From: Actinomycetota bacterium
GTDB taxonomy: Bacteria; Actinomycetota; Actinomycetes; Nanopelagicales; Nanopelagicaceae
DNA length: 15,040 nucleotides
Direction: 5' to 3'
NCBI GenBank assembly: GCA_009697555.1
Contig: WLQV01000003.1
Span: 1-15,040 of the forward strand
Shown here: positions 2,937-7,902 of the stretch, one piece after another
How positions within the stretch are numbered: position 1 is the first letter of the stretch
How the letters are laid out: each line of letters starts with the position of its first letter
Position numbers and translations under genes: made by a program
Notes under the pieces: model-generated
The model's input: the letters and a program-made list of their open reading frames with translations, nothing else
What the model was told of the DNA's origin: nothing
Databases searched by the model: none

Positions 2937-4145
2937 CTACTCCAATTCGCGCTCTGGCCCCTGTGAAGTTCCACCGAGTTTCTCATACGGTGGGATTAGC
3001 CGAGCTGGGTGGACGCTGCCACCGCCAAAACGATTGCGCGCCTTATCCAGGGCGGTCTGTACATGGCGCCAACTCTTATCGCGCTCATCAAAACTCATCT
3101 GCTCCGGTGCATCTTCGCTGAAATTCTCTAAGGCAACGCCAATAAGTCGCAACCGCGCACCTTCAATTTTCAATGCAAGGTAGAGCCCCTTAACAACTTC
3201 ATAAGTGTCATGTGCGGTGTTAATTGCAAGTGGCAGAGTCTTTGAACGATTGATGGTCGTGAAATCTGCGTAGCGAACTTTGATCGAAATAGTCTTTGCA
3301 AATAAGCCACTCTCCCGTAATCGAGCAGTGGCCTTTTCGGTAAGTCGAAGAAATTCCTGTAAGAGAATCTCTGGATCATCAATGTCTCGCGCAAATGTCT
3401 GTGCTGCGCTAATACTTTTTTCGGGTTCGTTGGGTGTGACATCGCGATAGTCACGTCCCCATGCCAATTCATAGAGTGAAGCGCCACTTGCTTCACCCAG
3501 TGCACGAATGAGTGTGGAGCGCGGTGTATCAGCTAATTCCTTTACGGTGCGCAACCCTAGCCGTTCGAGTGATTCGGCAGTCTTAGGACCAACTCCCCAA
3601 ATGGCGCTGACGGGCAATGGGTGGAGAAATTCTAAAATTCGATCTGGTGCAATCTCTAAAATTCCATTGGGTTTGCAGCGTCCAGAGGCGAGCTTGGCGA
3701 TAAATTTTGAAGGTGCAATTCCCACTGAGCAGGTAATGCCCTCTTGCGATTCCACTTGAGCCCGGATGGCAATAGCAATTTCTCGCGGCGTACCTTTTAA
3801 GCGAAGTGAGCCGGTGACATCGAGGAATGCTTCATCGAGTGAGAGCGGTTCAACGAGTGGAGTGAAGGAGTGAAAGATCTCCATGACGCGTTCGGAGATT
3901 TCTGAATATCGATGATGCTCTGGTGCTACAAATATTGCATGTGGCGCTAATCGTTTGGCACGTCCGACTGGCATCGCAGCTCGAATGCCGAAGGTACGCG
4001 CTAAGTAATTGGCAGAGAGAACAACGCCGCGCGCTCCTGCGCCAACAACAACGGCCTTGCCTTTGAGCGATGGGTTATCGAGTTCGGCCACTGATGCATA
4101 GAAAGCATCCATGTCGATGTGGAGAATCGATGAAATCTCACTCAT
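2937..4145 (-). CDS. dinB: DNA polymerase IV, Y-family translesion polymerase DinB
   Basis: A 402-residue Y-family polymerase with intact catalytic residues: HIDMDAFYASV with D11 and D13, and LSLDEAFLD with D104 and E105. It also has the finger motif YLARTFGIRAAMP at 48-60, TCSVGIAPSKFIAKLAS at 138-154, a helix-hairpin-helix thumb (AIWGVGPKTAESLERLG, 181-197), a little-finger domain at about 245-345, and a candidate beta-clamp peptide EQMSFD at 348-353. The usual Glu after ASV is Ala here (ASVAELDNP). It extends past mispaired or damaged primer ends in SOS mutagenesis. The ATG overlaps the stop of dnaE2 (ATGA), so translation is coupled and both probably answer to the SOS box at 7827. Because the carboxylates are present it is an active DinB, not the catalytically dead ImuB of the mycobacterial mutasome. 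Confidence 0.95.
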   Translation of the reverse strand: MSEISSILHIDMDAFYASVAELDNPSLKGKAVVVGAGARGVVLSANYLARTFGIRAAMPVGRAKRLAPHAIFVAPEHHRYSEISERVMEIFHSFTPLVEPLSLDEAFLDVTGSLRLKGTPREIAIAIRAQVESQEGITCSVGIAPSKFIAKLASGRCKPNGILEIAPDRILEFLHPLPVSAIWGVGPKTAESLERLGLRTVKELADTPRSTLIRALGEASGASLYELAWGRDYRDVTPNEPEKSISAAQTFARDIDDPEILLQEFLRLTEKATARLRESGLFAKTISIKVRYADFTTINRSKTLPLAINTAHDTYEVVKGLYLALKIEGARLRLIGVALENFSEDAPEQMSFDERDKSWRHVQTALDKARNRFGGGSVHPARLIPPYEKLGGTSQGPERELE

Positions 4146-7100
4146 GATACGAGCGTACTTTGATTAGCACGCCATTTTCCGTATACATCAGCTAAATCCC
4201 ATGCGCCAGTTGCACGAAGTGAGATACCGCGCGCACCAGTGCGGCGCACGATGCCACGAATTAAGAAGAGCGTGCTACTAAAAAGCACTGGACCGCACTC
4301 TCGCTGCGCATCTGTGAAGAATGTAATGTCGCTGCAACCATAACCATCATCGATCGTAAGAAAGATCACCCGATTGCCAGAGCGCACTGGTGGTGTTTGC
4401 AGCGCAACTCTGACGCCAGCGACGAGGATGGATGATCCCGATCGTTGAGTGAGTAGATCGGCAGAGCGCACTGCACCGATTGCATTGAGAAATGGTGCAT
4501 AGAACTCAATGAGATGGTGCGAGACCTCCATACCTAGCTGCTCGACTTCATGACGGACTTTCTCATCGGCGTGGAGATCGGGCAGGCCACTTGCACTCAA
4601 TGGTGGCGTTGGAAAACCTAAACCTAATTGAGTACTGCCAGCTCGATTGCGTTTGCGTGGGCCACTTCCAGCGCGATAGAAATCTTGGAGATGAAGTAAG
4701 AGATCGCGTCGATTGATACCGCTCTCTTCTGCATGAAGTGAATGAATGCGATCGAATGCGCCGACGAGAATAAGGCGTTCGGTAATGGGTTCGGAGACAT
4801 TGCTGCGATGGAGAAAATCGATGAGATCTTCATAAGGTTGTCCTGCAATAATTCCAGCAACTTCCGCATCGCTAATGCCATTGAGATCACCGAGTGATAA
4901 CCGAATTGCATAACCACGTGCATCAGGCAGGGAGAGTTCCTTTCCGGTACTTGCGCTATTAATCACCGCTACCGGCGTAGGTGCGGTATCGGGATCGCAA
5001 CGTTCGACTCGATAACTATCGCTAGAGAGATTGATATCCAGTGGTGCAATTGAAATCCCCCACTGCTTTGCCTCATCGATAATGACGCGCTTGGGATACA
5101 TCCCTGGATCGTGGGTAAGAACACCTGCCAGAAATGCTGCGGGATAGTGGCGTTTGAGCCAGGCAGATTGATAGGTCGGAAGTGCGAAAGCTGCAGCATG
5201 TGCTTTACAGAAACCAAAGGCGGCAAAGGCGCGAAGTACCTCCCAGACCTTATCGATCACGCTACTTTCATAACCGCGCGCTAAGCAGGCTGAATAGAAC
5301 CAATCGCAGACTTGCTGCTGCCCTTCGGCACTTCCTAAAGCCCGACGCTTCTCATCGCCAAGTGCCAAAGATGCACCACTCATAGTGGAGATGATCTCGA
5401 TTACCTGTTCATGAAAGACAACAACGCCTTCGGTGGGTGCCAAAATCTCATGGAGATCGGGATGAATAATCTGCGCACTTGCCCATCCGTGACGCGCGCG
5501 CAGAAATGGCGTAATCATGTCGCTCTGCATTGGCCCAGGTCGAAAGAGTGAGATATCAATAATGAGATCTTCAAAAGACTTTGGCGCTAACTTGCCCACT
5601 AACTCGCGCTGTCCCGGACTTTCAATTTGGAAGATTCCAATAGTTCGTGCAGATTGAATGAGGTCGAAGGTAGGTAGATCATCCAGTGGTACTCGATCGA
5701 TGTCGATAGCAGTGCTCTCACTCCGTGCAATTTCAGCAACGCTATAAGCGATAGCAGATTGCATGCGCACACCTAAAATATCGAGCTTGAGTAAGCCGAC
5801 CGCTTCGACATCATCTTTATCAAACTCCACCATGGGATAGCCAGCGGCATTGACTTGTAGTGGAACTCGATCGAGAAGTGCGCTATCGGAGAGAACTACT
5901 GCACATGGATGCATCGCTAAATGGCGCGGTAGGCCATCTAGTTTTTCGGCTAGCGCAATTGTCATGGCGACGAGTGGTTGAGAGATATTGAGTTGAGATA
6001 ACTCGGGCAGATTCGCGAGTGCCTGTGAAATATTGCGGGCGCGAATATGTGGCATCGCCTTAGCAAGGAGATCGATCTCGCCAGCGGCCAGACCCAGCGC
6101 TGCTCCTGCATCGCGAATGGCATGGCGGGCGCGATAGGTATCGACCATCGCAACGGTGGCGCAGCGCGATGTATTGCCTGGCGTGCTCCACTTTCGATCG
6201 CCATAACGTGCAAAAACTAGATTGTAAATTTCTAAGCGGCGGGCAGATTCCACATCAATATCAATGTCAGGTAATTCACGGCGCAGTGGCGAGCAGAAGC
6301 GCTCCATTAATAAACCATGGCGGAGTGGATCGACACCTGAGATACCTAAGAGATGACAGATCAATGAACCGGCGCCGCTACCCCGCGCCGCAACGCGGAT
6401 TCCGCGATCGCGCGCCATCTGCGCAATATCAGCGACAGTTAAGAAGTAACTCTCATAACCCAGGGTGGCCACAGTGGTGAGTTCATCGGCTAGTCGATCG
6501 CGCGCTACGGCAAGTGTTTTACTGCTGCTATAGCGCCAATGTAATCCAGCTTCACTGCGCTCTTGTAAGAGTGAGCGCAATTGCTCAGCAGAGTTCGCAC
6601 CGACAACTTCTGGTTCGGGTAAATAAATTCCGCCTAAGCCAAAATCTTTCTTGGGCGAGAGAATGGAGCGCATCGCTAATTCATGTGTGCTCTTAAGAAG
6701 TGCACGACCACTGCGCTCTCCTGCGCTACGTGAAATTTCATCGGCAAGTGCTGCCATCTCTTCACTTGATTTAAGAAATGCTTCGCTATTTCTCCGTTCG
6801 ACATGGCGCTTATCGAGTGGGCGTAACTTACGTGCCGAATCGAGGATATCGCTGATCGGTGCATCGCTGCGATTGAGCATGCGCACCGCATTGGTGAGAA
6901 TCGCCGGCAGATCGTGATCGCGGGCAAAGCCCAATAATTGCGCAGCATGTCTAGTAGTAAATGGGCCATTGCCTGGTGCTAAGTGGGAGACACATTCAAT
7001 AACTTGATCGGCAAAGAGATCGCGCCCATTATTAAAGAGTGCAAGCGCTACTTCACTCTGGCGGGCAGAAATTGCTTGGGCAAGAGGTGAGAGTGGGGTA

Positions 7101-7522
7101 TGAATAAGTGTGAGGTTCTTGGTGTACTCGCTAAAGCGCGCTAAGAAGTGATCGGTGAGATGTGGCGCAGTAATGCGAGTAAGTAGGCCAGATTCGGATA
7201 CCTCTGAATCAGATGTATGAAGGGCGGTACTTAATCGACAGAGCGAGCGCCATCCTCCTTCGCTGCGCGCGAGAAGTGTGACGCGACCGCTGCTCTTATA
7301 TTTTTCAGAGTGGTAGCCAAGGTTGAGTCCGATGATTGGTGCAATGCCGGCTCGCACAGTTGCTTGAATAAAACGAATTGCACCAGCCAGGCTATCGCGA
7401 TCGGTGAGTGCAAGTGCTGGTGCTTCATATTCAATGCTCCGAGCAACAAGGGCATCGGGTGGCGTTGTTCCATATTTAAAGGAGTAGGAACTCACAACAT
7501 TGAGATGGATAAAATTTTTCAT
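4142..7522 (-). CDS. dnaE2: Error-prone C-family DNA polymerase III alpha subunit, DnaE2 type
   Basis: A 1126-residue C-family polymerase. The order is a PHP domain (1 to about 230), the palm with GSGAGS at 381-386 and PDIDID holding catalytic D419 and D421, the third Asp D581 in LLKLDILG, the fingers with GIFQIESPGQ near 629-638, RPGPMQ, and FCKAHAAAFALPTYQSAWLK near 771-790, then a helix-hairpin-helix region, a possible clamp-binding QLGLGF at about 965-970, and an OB fold with VAGVRVALQTP near 1034-1044. The PHP metal motif is broken: family HLHVHSxYS reads HLNVVSSYS, so PHP exonuclease activity is doubtful. That, and the SOS-controlled operon with dinB, argue for a mutagenic polymerase rather than the replicative DnaE1. 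The start lies 12 bases after the DUF6504 stop with only a weak ribosome site. DnaE2/ImuC naming is by analogy; it may be a separate actinobacterial subgroup. Confidence 0.92.
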   Translation of the reverse strand: MKNFIHLNVVSSYSFKYGTTPPDALVARSIEYEAPALALTDRDSLAGAIRFIQATVRAGIAPIIGLNLGYHSEKYKSSGRVTLLARSEGGWRSLCRLSTALHTSDSEVSESGLLTRITAPHLTDHFLARFSEYTKNLTLIHTPLSPLAQAISARQSEVALALFNNGRDLFADQVIECVSHLAPGNGPFTTRHAAQLLGFARDHDLPAILTNAVRMLNRSDAPISDILDSARKLRPLDKRHVERRNSEAFLKSSEEMAALADEISRSAGERSGRALLKSTHELAMRSILSPKKDFGLGGIYLPEPEVVGANSAEQLRSLLQERSEAGLHWRYSSSKTLAVARDRLADELTTVATLGYESYFLTVADIAQMARDRGIRVAARGSGAGSLICHLLGISGVDPLRHGLLMERFCSPLRRELPDIDIDVESARRLEIYNLVFARYGDRKWSTPGNTSRCATVAMVDTYRARHAIRDAGAALGLAAGEIDLLAKAMPHIRARNISQALANLPELSQLNISQPLVAMTIALAEKLDGLPRHLAMHPCAVVLSDSALLDRVPLQVNAAGYPMVEFDKDDVEAVGLLKLDILGVRMQSAIAYSVAEIARSESTAIDIDRVPLDDLPTFDLIQSARTIGIFQIESPGQRELVGKLAPKSFEDLIIDISLFRPGPMQSDMITPFLRARHGWASAQIIHPDLHEILAPTEGVVVFHEQVIEIISTMSGASLALGDEKRRALGSAEGQQQVCDWFYSACLARGYESSVIDKVWEVLRAFAAFGFCKAHAAAFALPTYQSAWLKRHYPAAFLAGVLTHDPGMYPKRVIIDEAKQWGISIAPLDINLSSDSYRVERCDPDTAPTPVAVINSASTGKELSLPDARGYAIRLSLGDLNGISDAEVAGIIAGQPYEDLIDFLHRSNVSEPITERLILVGAFDRIHSLHAEESGINRRDLLLHLQDFYRAGSGPRKRNRAGSTQLGLGFPTPPLSASGLPDLHADEKVRHEVEQLGMEVSHHLIEFYAPFLNAIGAVRSADLLTQRSGSSILVAGVRVALQTPPVRSGNRVIFLTIDDGYGCSDITFFTDAQRECGPVLFSSTLFLIRGIVRRTGARGISLRATGAWDLADVYGKWRANQSTLVS

Positions 7523-7534
7523 TCTGATCTGAAC

Positions 7535-7834
7535 TTAAATACTGCGGATGAGCCAAGCGCCACTTGCTTCATCGCGCTCTAATTCAAATGTGACAACTGC
7601 CCCGATTGGAGCTGCCTCTACTCGCCAGAGTGCGCGAGCGCGATCATCGGGGCGAAGCACACCATCGCTAATGTGGTTCCACCACTCTCCTGACTCGCAC
7701 CAGCGAGAGAGAGTTGTATGTACGCGAAAGCGCCGTCCGTTAAATGTGAACTCGATCGGGCTCTGGCCATCGATAAGAACATCATGGGTAAGACGGGCCG
7801 GTGGCGGCGCTGGTATATCTCTTTTTTCGAACAT
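7535..7834 (-). CDS. DUF6504 family protein, first gene of the SOS mutagenesis operon
   Basis: A 99-residue soluble protein. From residue 28 it shows the pattern I associate with DUF6504, a family next to dnaE2/dinP genes in Streptomyces: FTFNGRRFRVHTTLSRWCESGEWW (FxWxGRxYxVxxVLxxWxxxGEWW) in 29-52, LWRVEA at 69-74 and FELERDEASGAWLI at 83-96. No catalytic motif is evident; a role as accessory factor for the two polymerases is inference. I chose the ATG at 7834-7832, which lies inside the SOS box. The frame is open 21 codons further to a TTG, but that extension would cover the promoter and is Arg/Cys-rich. There is no Shine-Dalgarno, and the promoter at 7843-7871 predicts a leaderless mRNA. 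The family assignment is from memory of its sequence pattern. Confidence 0.82.
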   Translation of the reverse strand: MFEKRDIPAPPPARLTHDVLIDGQSPIEFTFNGRRFRVHTTLSRWCESGEWWNHISDGVLRPDDRARALWRVEAAPIGAVVTFELERDEASGAWLIRSI

Positions 7835-7842
7835 TTGTTCGA
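7827..7842. promoter_or_regulatory. LexA-binding SOS box
   Basis: TCGAACATTTGTTCGA is a perfect 6+4+6 palindrome matching the actinobacterial SOS consensus TCGAAC-N4-GTTCGA at every conserved base. It starts directly downstream of the -10 hexamer at 7843-7848 of the minus-strand promoter and covers the predicted transcription start and the ATG of the DUF6504 gene. LexA bound here would block initiation until cleaved after DNA damage. It is about 60 bases upstream of the doxX promoter candidate and is less likely to control that gene. Confidence 0.93.
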
Positions 7843-7871
7843 AAAGTACCCGTAACCTCCGACATTGGCAA
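7843..7871 (-). promoter_or_regulatory. SOS promoter for DUF6504-dnaE2-dinB
   Basis: On the minus strand, TTGCCA (7871-7866) is followed by exactly 17 bases and TACTTT (7848-7843), a -35/-10 pair close to the vegetative sigma consensus. Initiation 6-8 bases after the -10 falls at 7836-7834, on or next to the A of the ATG at 7834, so the message is probably leaderless. Confidence 0.75.
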
Positions 7872-7902
7872 GGCAGGCAGGCGCGCCAGAGCGGCAAAAT
7901 GG

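Follow-up and report, generated by a model that had tools for sequence, protein, structure and literature searches.

A predicted start codon inside a LexA-type operator at a putative composite damage promoter of an accessory-polymerase operon in a freshwater bacterial family

The window, by which we mean the whole stretch of 15,040 nucleotides analyzed here (contig WLQV01000003.1 of an Actinomycetota bacterium, family Nanopelagicaceae), carries a three-gene operon on its minus strand. The first gene (7535..7834) encodes a 99-aa protein beginning with MFEKRDIP and matching DUF6504 (PF20114; E 2.3e-8, over the cut-off). The second (4142..7522) encodes a DnaE-type polymerase of 1126 aa, and the third (2937..4145), which overlaps the end of dnaE by 4 nt, encodes DNA polymerase IV (DinB). 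This DnaE is one of two DnaE matches in the genome, and it is called accessory because a better-scoring DnaE is encoded elsewhere in the genome. In NCBIfam, no family was found for the DUF6504 protein, and the DnaE received no over-cut-off name beyond that of the superfamily.

The promoter elements, all on the minus strand, extend into the beginning of the DUF6504 gene. A −35-like hexamer, TTGCCA (7866..7871), lies 17 nt from a −10 hexamer, TACTTT (7843..7848), which conforms to TANNNT; both were read directly. The −10 hexamer abuts, with zero gap, the perfect palindrome TCGAACAAATGTTCGA (7827..7842), a predicted LexA operator (SOS box), and the predicted ATG start codon of the DUF6504 gene (7832..7834) is located inside this palindrome, as judged from direct reading and from conservation. 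An earlier note on this DNA had described the TTGCCA-N17-TACTTT promoter, the abutting LexA-type palindrome, and the DUF6504 ATG within it, and all of these were confirmed.

The window contains a single exact copy of the palindrome, and none was found in 400 dinucleotide shuffles of the window. Moreover, the −10 hexamer with an abutting perfect box was found at 73 sites in 71 of the 101 family genomes, against none for the reversed control pattern. A chance palindrome was ruled out by these results. Palindromes with up to three mismatches, by comparison, show no excess (three in the window against 6.3 expected). The exact sequence CGAACN4GTTCG is present at just two sites of the 988-kb genome (78% complete): the DUF6504 promoter and the region upstream of recA. 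A LexA-type operator, defined as a perfect or near-perfect TCGAACN4GTTCGA at a core promoter, is found here. LexA itself is present in 87 of the 101 family genomes; in the window's own assembly, which is 78% complete, it gave no match.

A search for DUF6504 in 150 relatives provided 104 matches, 77 of them among 90 genomes of the same family. The window, these 77 family loci, and three loci from a second family (f5) are referred to as the 81-locus set hereafter. The box is intact (12/12) in 72 of the 81 loci. The −10 hexamer plus abutting perfect box is found exactly at the DUF6504 box in 62 and is absent there in 19, while 10 of the 73 sites mentioned above fall in genomes outside this set. 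In the alignment across relatives, a check proposed in the earlier note, an in-frame ATG lies within the operator at 59 of the 81 loci, namely in the window and in 58 of the 77 same-family loci; it is elsewhere in 19 family loci and in the three f5 loci. At the genus level, the in-operator ATG was found in 12 of 16 genera, the genus of the window included, and was absent from g5, g12, g14, and g16; in g8, it is present in four of five genomes. The earlier note had named orthologues starting elsewhere as evidence against its view, and such orthologues do exist in these four genera and in one g8 genome. Such starts mark a phylogenetic limit, and for the window they are no refutation.

Among the 59 in-operator loci, the information content of the box is 1.9–2.0 bits except at one spacer base, that of the TA and the last T of the −10 hexamer is 1.5 bits, that of TGTC is 1.4–1.5 bits, and that of TTGC at the −35 distance is 0.9–1.9 bits. 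The values between and after the elements are mostly below 0.5 bits, and conservation is poor from the second base after the box onward. The four spacer bases occur in two forms alone, ATAT (34 loci) and AAAT (25 loci), and the invariance of the ATG in this group is partly a result of how the group was defined. As a separate observation, one family locus (L091 in genome G044) has two promoter–operator–ATG units 1.9 kb apart (contig positions about 51328 and 53237); a 255-codon ORF lies between them and the second unit opens a 28-codon frame, as if the operon start had been duplicated or interrupted.

The TGTC noted above belongs to an element that the earlier note had overlooked when it called the promoter an SOS switch; the LexA-type box agrees with that description, but a PafBC (RecA-NDp, −26) motif, TGTCGGAG (7857..7864, minus strand), is located between the −35 and −10 hexamers, 8 nt from the latter. 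The arrangement TGTCGGAG-N8-TACTTT fits the published consensus, tTGTCRgtg-8 nt-TannnT (PMC5656591): in the window, which reads aTGTCGGAG-GTTACGGG-TACTTT, all of the capital positions fit and two of the lower-case positions differ. TGTC-N12-TANNNT was found upstream of the box in 74 of the 81 loci and at none of the other spacings examined. The seven loci without this strict spacing are L047–L049, L114, and three in-operator loci of g17. The PafC HTH profile matched the window's own genome and 95 of the 100 others, and thus 96 of the 101 family genomes. PafBC is activated by single-stranded DNA, with PafB touching the −26 element and PafC touching sigma-A (PMC11804915), and mycobacterial genes bearing both LexA and PafBC motifs are known (PMC8223512). 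For Streptomyces venezuelae, an initial search by the authors of that study pointed to a lack of conservation of the PafBC motif known from M. smegmatis (PMC9380542). Because of the motif between −35 and −10, the DUF6504 promoter is probably not an SOS-only switch.

The recA loci of the family serve as an internal control. Thirty were fetched, of which three had no RecA anchor and one was short, and each of the remaining 26, which had enough sequence, contains a box together with a [CT]GTCRG-N10-TANNNT motif upstream of recA; boxes together with PafBC-type motifs thus exist in this family. These motifs mostly begin with CGTC and not TGTC. In 22 of the 26 loci, the box precedes the motif by 73–115 nt, the order also known for mycobacterial P2/P1, and in four g16 loci a motif abuts the box, as at the DUF6504 promoter. 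Mycobacterial recA likewise places both damage pathways on one gene, with LexA acting on promoter P2 and PafBC on promoter P1 (PMC5656591, PMC8223512). However, those are two separate promoters, whereas in the window both elements are on one promoter, and LexA would therefore also block a PafBC-assisted start. Apart from recA, two boxes (10–12 of 12 matching positions) were seen at the lexA loci (L126–L155), about 58 nt apart in most of them. In the complete genome of the relative G017 (contig C1, about 822213–822271), the gene divergent from lexA, whose 99-aa product is LysM-like by eye, has TGTCAGTG ahead of the far box. The same contig also carries, at 508314, a Pol IV-like gene with an upstream PafBC-type motif, far from the DUF6504–dnaE operon of that genome.

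Outside the family, the strict motif was found in six of 20 loci from the class and in all three f5 loci. In the six class loci, the box is located 8–10 nt behind the −10 hexamer in five and overlaps it in one (L024), and across the 20 class loci the DUF6504 domain match starts 34–288 nt downstream of the box. These occurrences suggest that the composite promoter predates the family and that the start inside the operator is younger, though 14 of the 20 class loci lack the strict motif.

Based on these elements, we consider it probable that one composite promoter, assisted by PafBC and blocked by LexA, drives the genes of DUF6504, the accessory DnaE, and Pol IV. PafBC, activated by single-stranded DNA, would aid RNA polymerase through TGTCGGAG, while LexA on the operator, reaching from the −10 hexamer to about +10, would exclude the polymerase, and expression would require cleavage of LexA regardless of PafBC activity. 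The transcript would begin at the ATG or two nucleotides before it, and translation would start from the operator ATG without a Shine–Dalgarno site, as appears common in a relative (see below). A translesion-synthesis operon would in this manner be placed under a single composite damage promoter; both this mechanism and its regulatory logic are predictions.

The alternative that survives best is a plain sigma-A promoter with a LexA operator and a strictly leaderless mRNA, in which TGTC is nothing but spacer. It was set aside once the TGTC spacing proved to be fixed, and it is retained as a rival that we regard as unlikely. The conserved TTGC at the −35 distance, the perfect LexA site, the commonness of the leaderless signature, and the lack of TGTC in the three in-operator g17 loci are compatible with it. 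It does not account for the high conservation of TGTC, which ranks with the best-conserved positions outside the box and is held at a fixed distance to the −10 hexamer, for the fit of this element to the published PafBC consensus, or for the similar motifs at recA in the family.

The earlier note took the operator ATG as the sole sensible start, and this stands: within its open frame, the single further ATG, GTG, or TTG ahead of the DUF6504 domain is a TTG at 7897, which precedes the promoter, and no in-frame ATG, GTG, or TTG was found between the operator ATG and the domain in the window. No alternative start led by a Shine–Dalgarno sequence exists for this gene, and the bases preceding the ATG are those of the promoter. 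Among the 59 in-operator loci, 40 have no other in-frame ATG or GTG before the domain, 15 have one without a Shine–Dalgarno-like core, and four have one with it. It is quite improbable, in our judgment, that the operator ATG is an unused by-product of a preference of LexA in the spacer and that translation starts at the TTG at 7897 or at a non-standard downstream codon. Such a by-product is conceivable since an ATG stands at the equivalent place in 10 of 18 operators from the class but outside the family, eight of these 10 not in an open DUF6504 frame (the two in an open frame are L016 and L026), and since Planktophila-like loci start downstream. The location of the TTG upstream of the promoter, the 40 loci without another in-frame start, and the preservation of the frame in 58 of 77 relatives argue against it. 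An artefact of chance or recent ancestry without function is scarcely credible: relatives do share sequence by descent and the counts are not independent, but the DnaE proteins of the compared rows differ much (long branches), the bases next to the elements and the flanks are conserved little or less than the box, and the exact box never appeared in the shuffles. In three g5 loci (L047, L048, and L049), the operator ATG opens a 29-codon frame other than DUF6504, and the DUF6504 frame begins about 150 nt downstream.

The gap between the −10 hexamer and the ATG is 8 nt in 53 of the 59 in-operator loci and 9 nt in six. For comparison, among 951 ORFs of G017 (1.20 Mb), 147 have a TANNNT that ends precisely 6 nt ahead of the first ATG, while 44 have a gap of 7, 29 a gap of 9, and 22 a gap of 8, with 7–22 ORFs at each of the other gaps. 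From this peak at 6 nt, leaderless mRNAs are probably common in G017, and we thus dropped the notion that leaderlessness is itself unusual. The earlier note had predicted a leaderless mRNA. The absence of an alternative start led by a Shine–Dalgarno sequence agrees with this, but the gap is 8–9 nt and not the leaderless mode of 6 seen in G017, and the claim was slightly too strong; that note was right on the start and the operator and incomplete on the promoter. With a gap of 8 nt and the usual spacing, the first transcribed base would be the invariant A located two positions upstream of the ATG, and the predicted start region is 7834..7836 (minus strand), corresponding to a leader of 0–2 nt. 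A 2-nt leader seems at least as likely as none. In mycobacteria, leaderless translation required RTG at the transcription start (PMC4633059), and the leaderless lexA of M. tuberculosis is translated from its transcription start (PMC2897130), akin to the prediction for the window. The acuR operon of Rhodobacter sphaeroides is also akin to the window in that its transcript starts from its AUG and its operator overlaps the promoter; the difference is that no start codon is described within that inverted repeat in the text available, whereas the ATG of the window is inside the palindrome (PMC3017554). Separately, a PafBC-type motif whose −10 hexamer is separated by 6 nt from the ATG of a gene for a DnaQ-like exonuclease (name given by eye) was noticed in G017 (C1, 728683), and this may be a PafBC-only leaderless gene.

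The mis-starts by gene callers that the earlier note expected do occur. Among 92 predicted homologues, classified by pattern, 34 take the operator ATG as their start, 29 extend across the operator from a start upstream of it, and the other 29 begin downstream or are unclear; the 29 read-through gene models include lineages with a downstream start. Proteins predicted by reading through a promoter are thus a recurring annotation error. That note also held that the operator dictates the first codons and that these bases are under both LexA and coding constraint. The first part is supported and the second is not: each of the 10 g16 loci has an intact palindrome (12/12) that is no longer part of the DUF6504 coding sequence, and DUF6504 homologues that start elsewhere lack the MFE start, so that the operator alone appears to dictate the codons.

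A quick IQ-TREE phylogeny built from partial DnaE proteins (76 of the 81 rows; rooted at the midpoint) requires three changes of the in-operator state, against a mean of 17 when shuffled; several supports are 80–94, some branches are long, and the placement of the window itself is unsure. The natural reading would be that the state was gained once and lost twice, in the g16 clade and in a single g8 genome, with f5, g14, g5, and g12 lying outside. Besides the operator ATG, three g3 loci possess a second in-frame ATG, at 47, behind a Shine–Dalgarno-like core, and they form a plausible bridge to the g16 state. We also scanned named genomes, using the best 80 of 155 loci, which overlap the first set; 78 have the box. 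Among these 78, the start is outside the operator in 65, mostly Planktophila-like loci, and a downstream in-frame start was found in 63 of the 65, with a Shine–Dalgarno-like core (by a loose list of cores) in 62 of the 63 and the ATG 38–70 nt from the box start. Such cores were found in 17% of shuffled leaders and in the same stretch of 13 of the 59 in-operator loci. Ten of the 13 inside-start loci among these best 80 have no downstream start. The ATG carried by operators of later-starting relatives supports exaptation of the DUF6504 start codon from the operator.

Going further, we tentatively suggest a wider scheme, which we hold to be somewhat less probable than its negation. The accessory-polymerase operon would follow the logic "PafBC on AND LexA off" on one promoter in the family and parts of the class, while recA would mostly use two promoters ("either"); the leader would have collapsed in the window's family, making the operator the translation start, and a later clade would have released it by means of a Shine–Dalgarno sequence. 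If this is true, mutagenic polymerases need both damage signals and recA needs one, and the damage logic of the two may differ in freshwater actinobacteria in a testable manner. The natural variants, with starts ahead of the operator, within it, and after release from it, would illustrate the passage of an operator into coding sequence and back. Literature searches covering listings and partial texts found no published case of a start codon placed within a LexA operator, and the operator-embedded start is predicted to be an evolutionary variant of known switches in a freshwater bacterial family.

One of the closest counterparts of the operon is dnaE2-dinP of S. venezuelae, likewise a LexA-controlled pair of an accessory DnaE and a DinB-type polymerase, two boxes of which bound LexA in vitro; its box is at −68 from the predicted dnaE2 start, whereas the ATG of the window is inside the box (PMC9380542). 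The imuA-imuB-dnaE2 mutasome and the stand-alone ImuB-C cassettes likewise combine DnaE2 with a Y-family polymerase, in some cases with a small beta-rich protein, and often together with lexA (PMC6511836, PMC3765255, PMC8072749). The three genes of the window include neither ImuA nor ImuB, and DUF6504 is weakly linked to ImuB-C. The body of DUF6504 is conserved and all-beta in a model of modest quality (mean pLDDT 72.8). A fold search with this model gave no match at E 0.001, and no function was therefore derived from the fold; a literature search on DUF6504 found no papers. PF20114 matched, weakly and below the cut-off (E 0.0054), the C-terminal part of a Rhizobium Y-family ImuB-like protein encoded beside ImuA, the DUF6504 search gave a match in the Caulobacter genome used as a control, and stand-alone ImuB-C genes adjoining dnaE2 or Pol IV have been published (PMC3765255, PMC6511836). 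A role of DUF6504 as a stand-alone ImuB-C-like protein is thus plausible as a candidate. On a Streptomyces plasmid relative, a Ku gene and not an annotated DUF6504 gene precedes dnaE; hence, the DUF6504–dnaE order is not universal. Finally, DUF6504 and dnaE were also found on the conjugative Arthrobacter plasmid pYA7-1a (L264, 2130–5734), where TGTCGGTG-N8-TAGTGT occurs and its last T is the first base of a 10/12 box.
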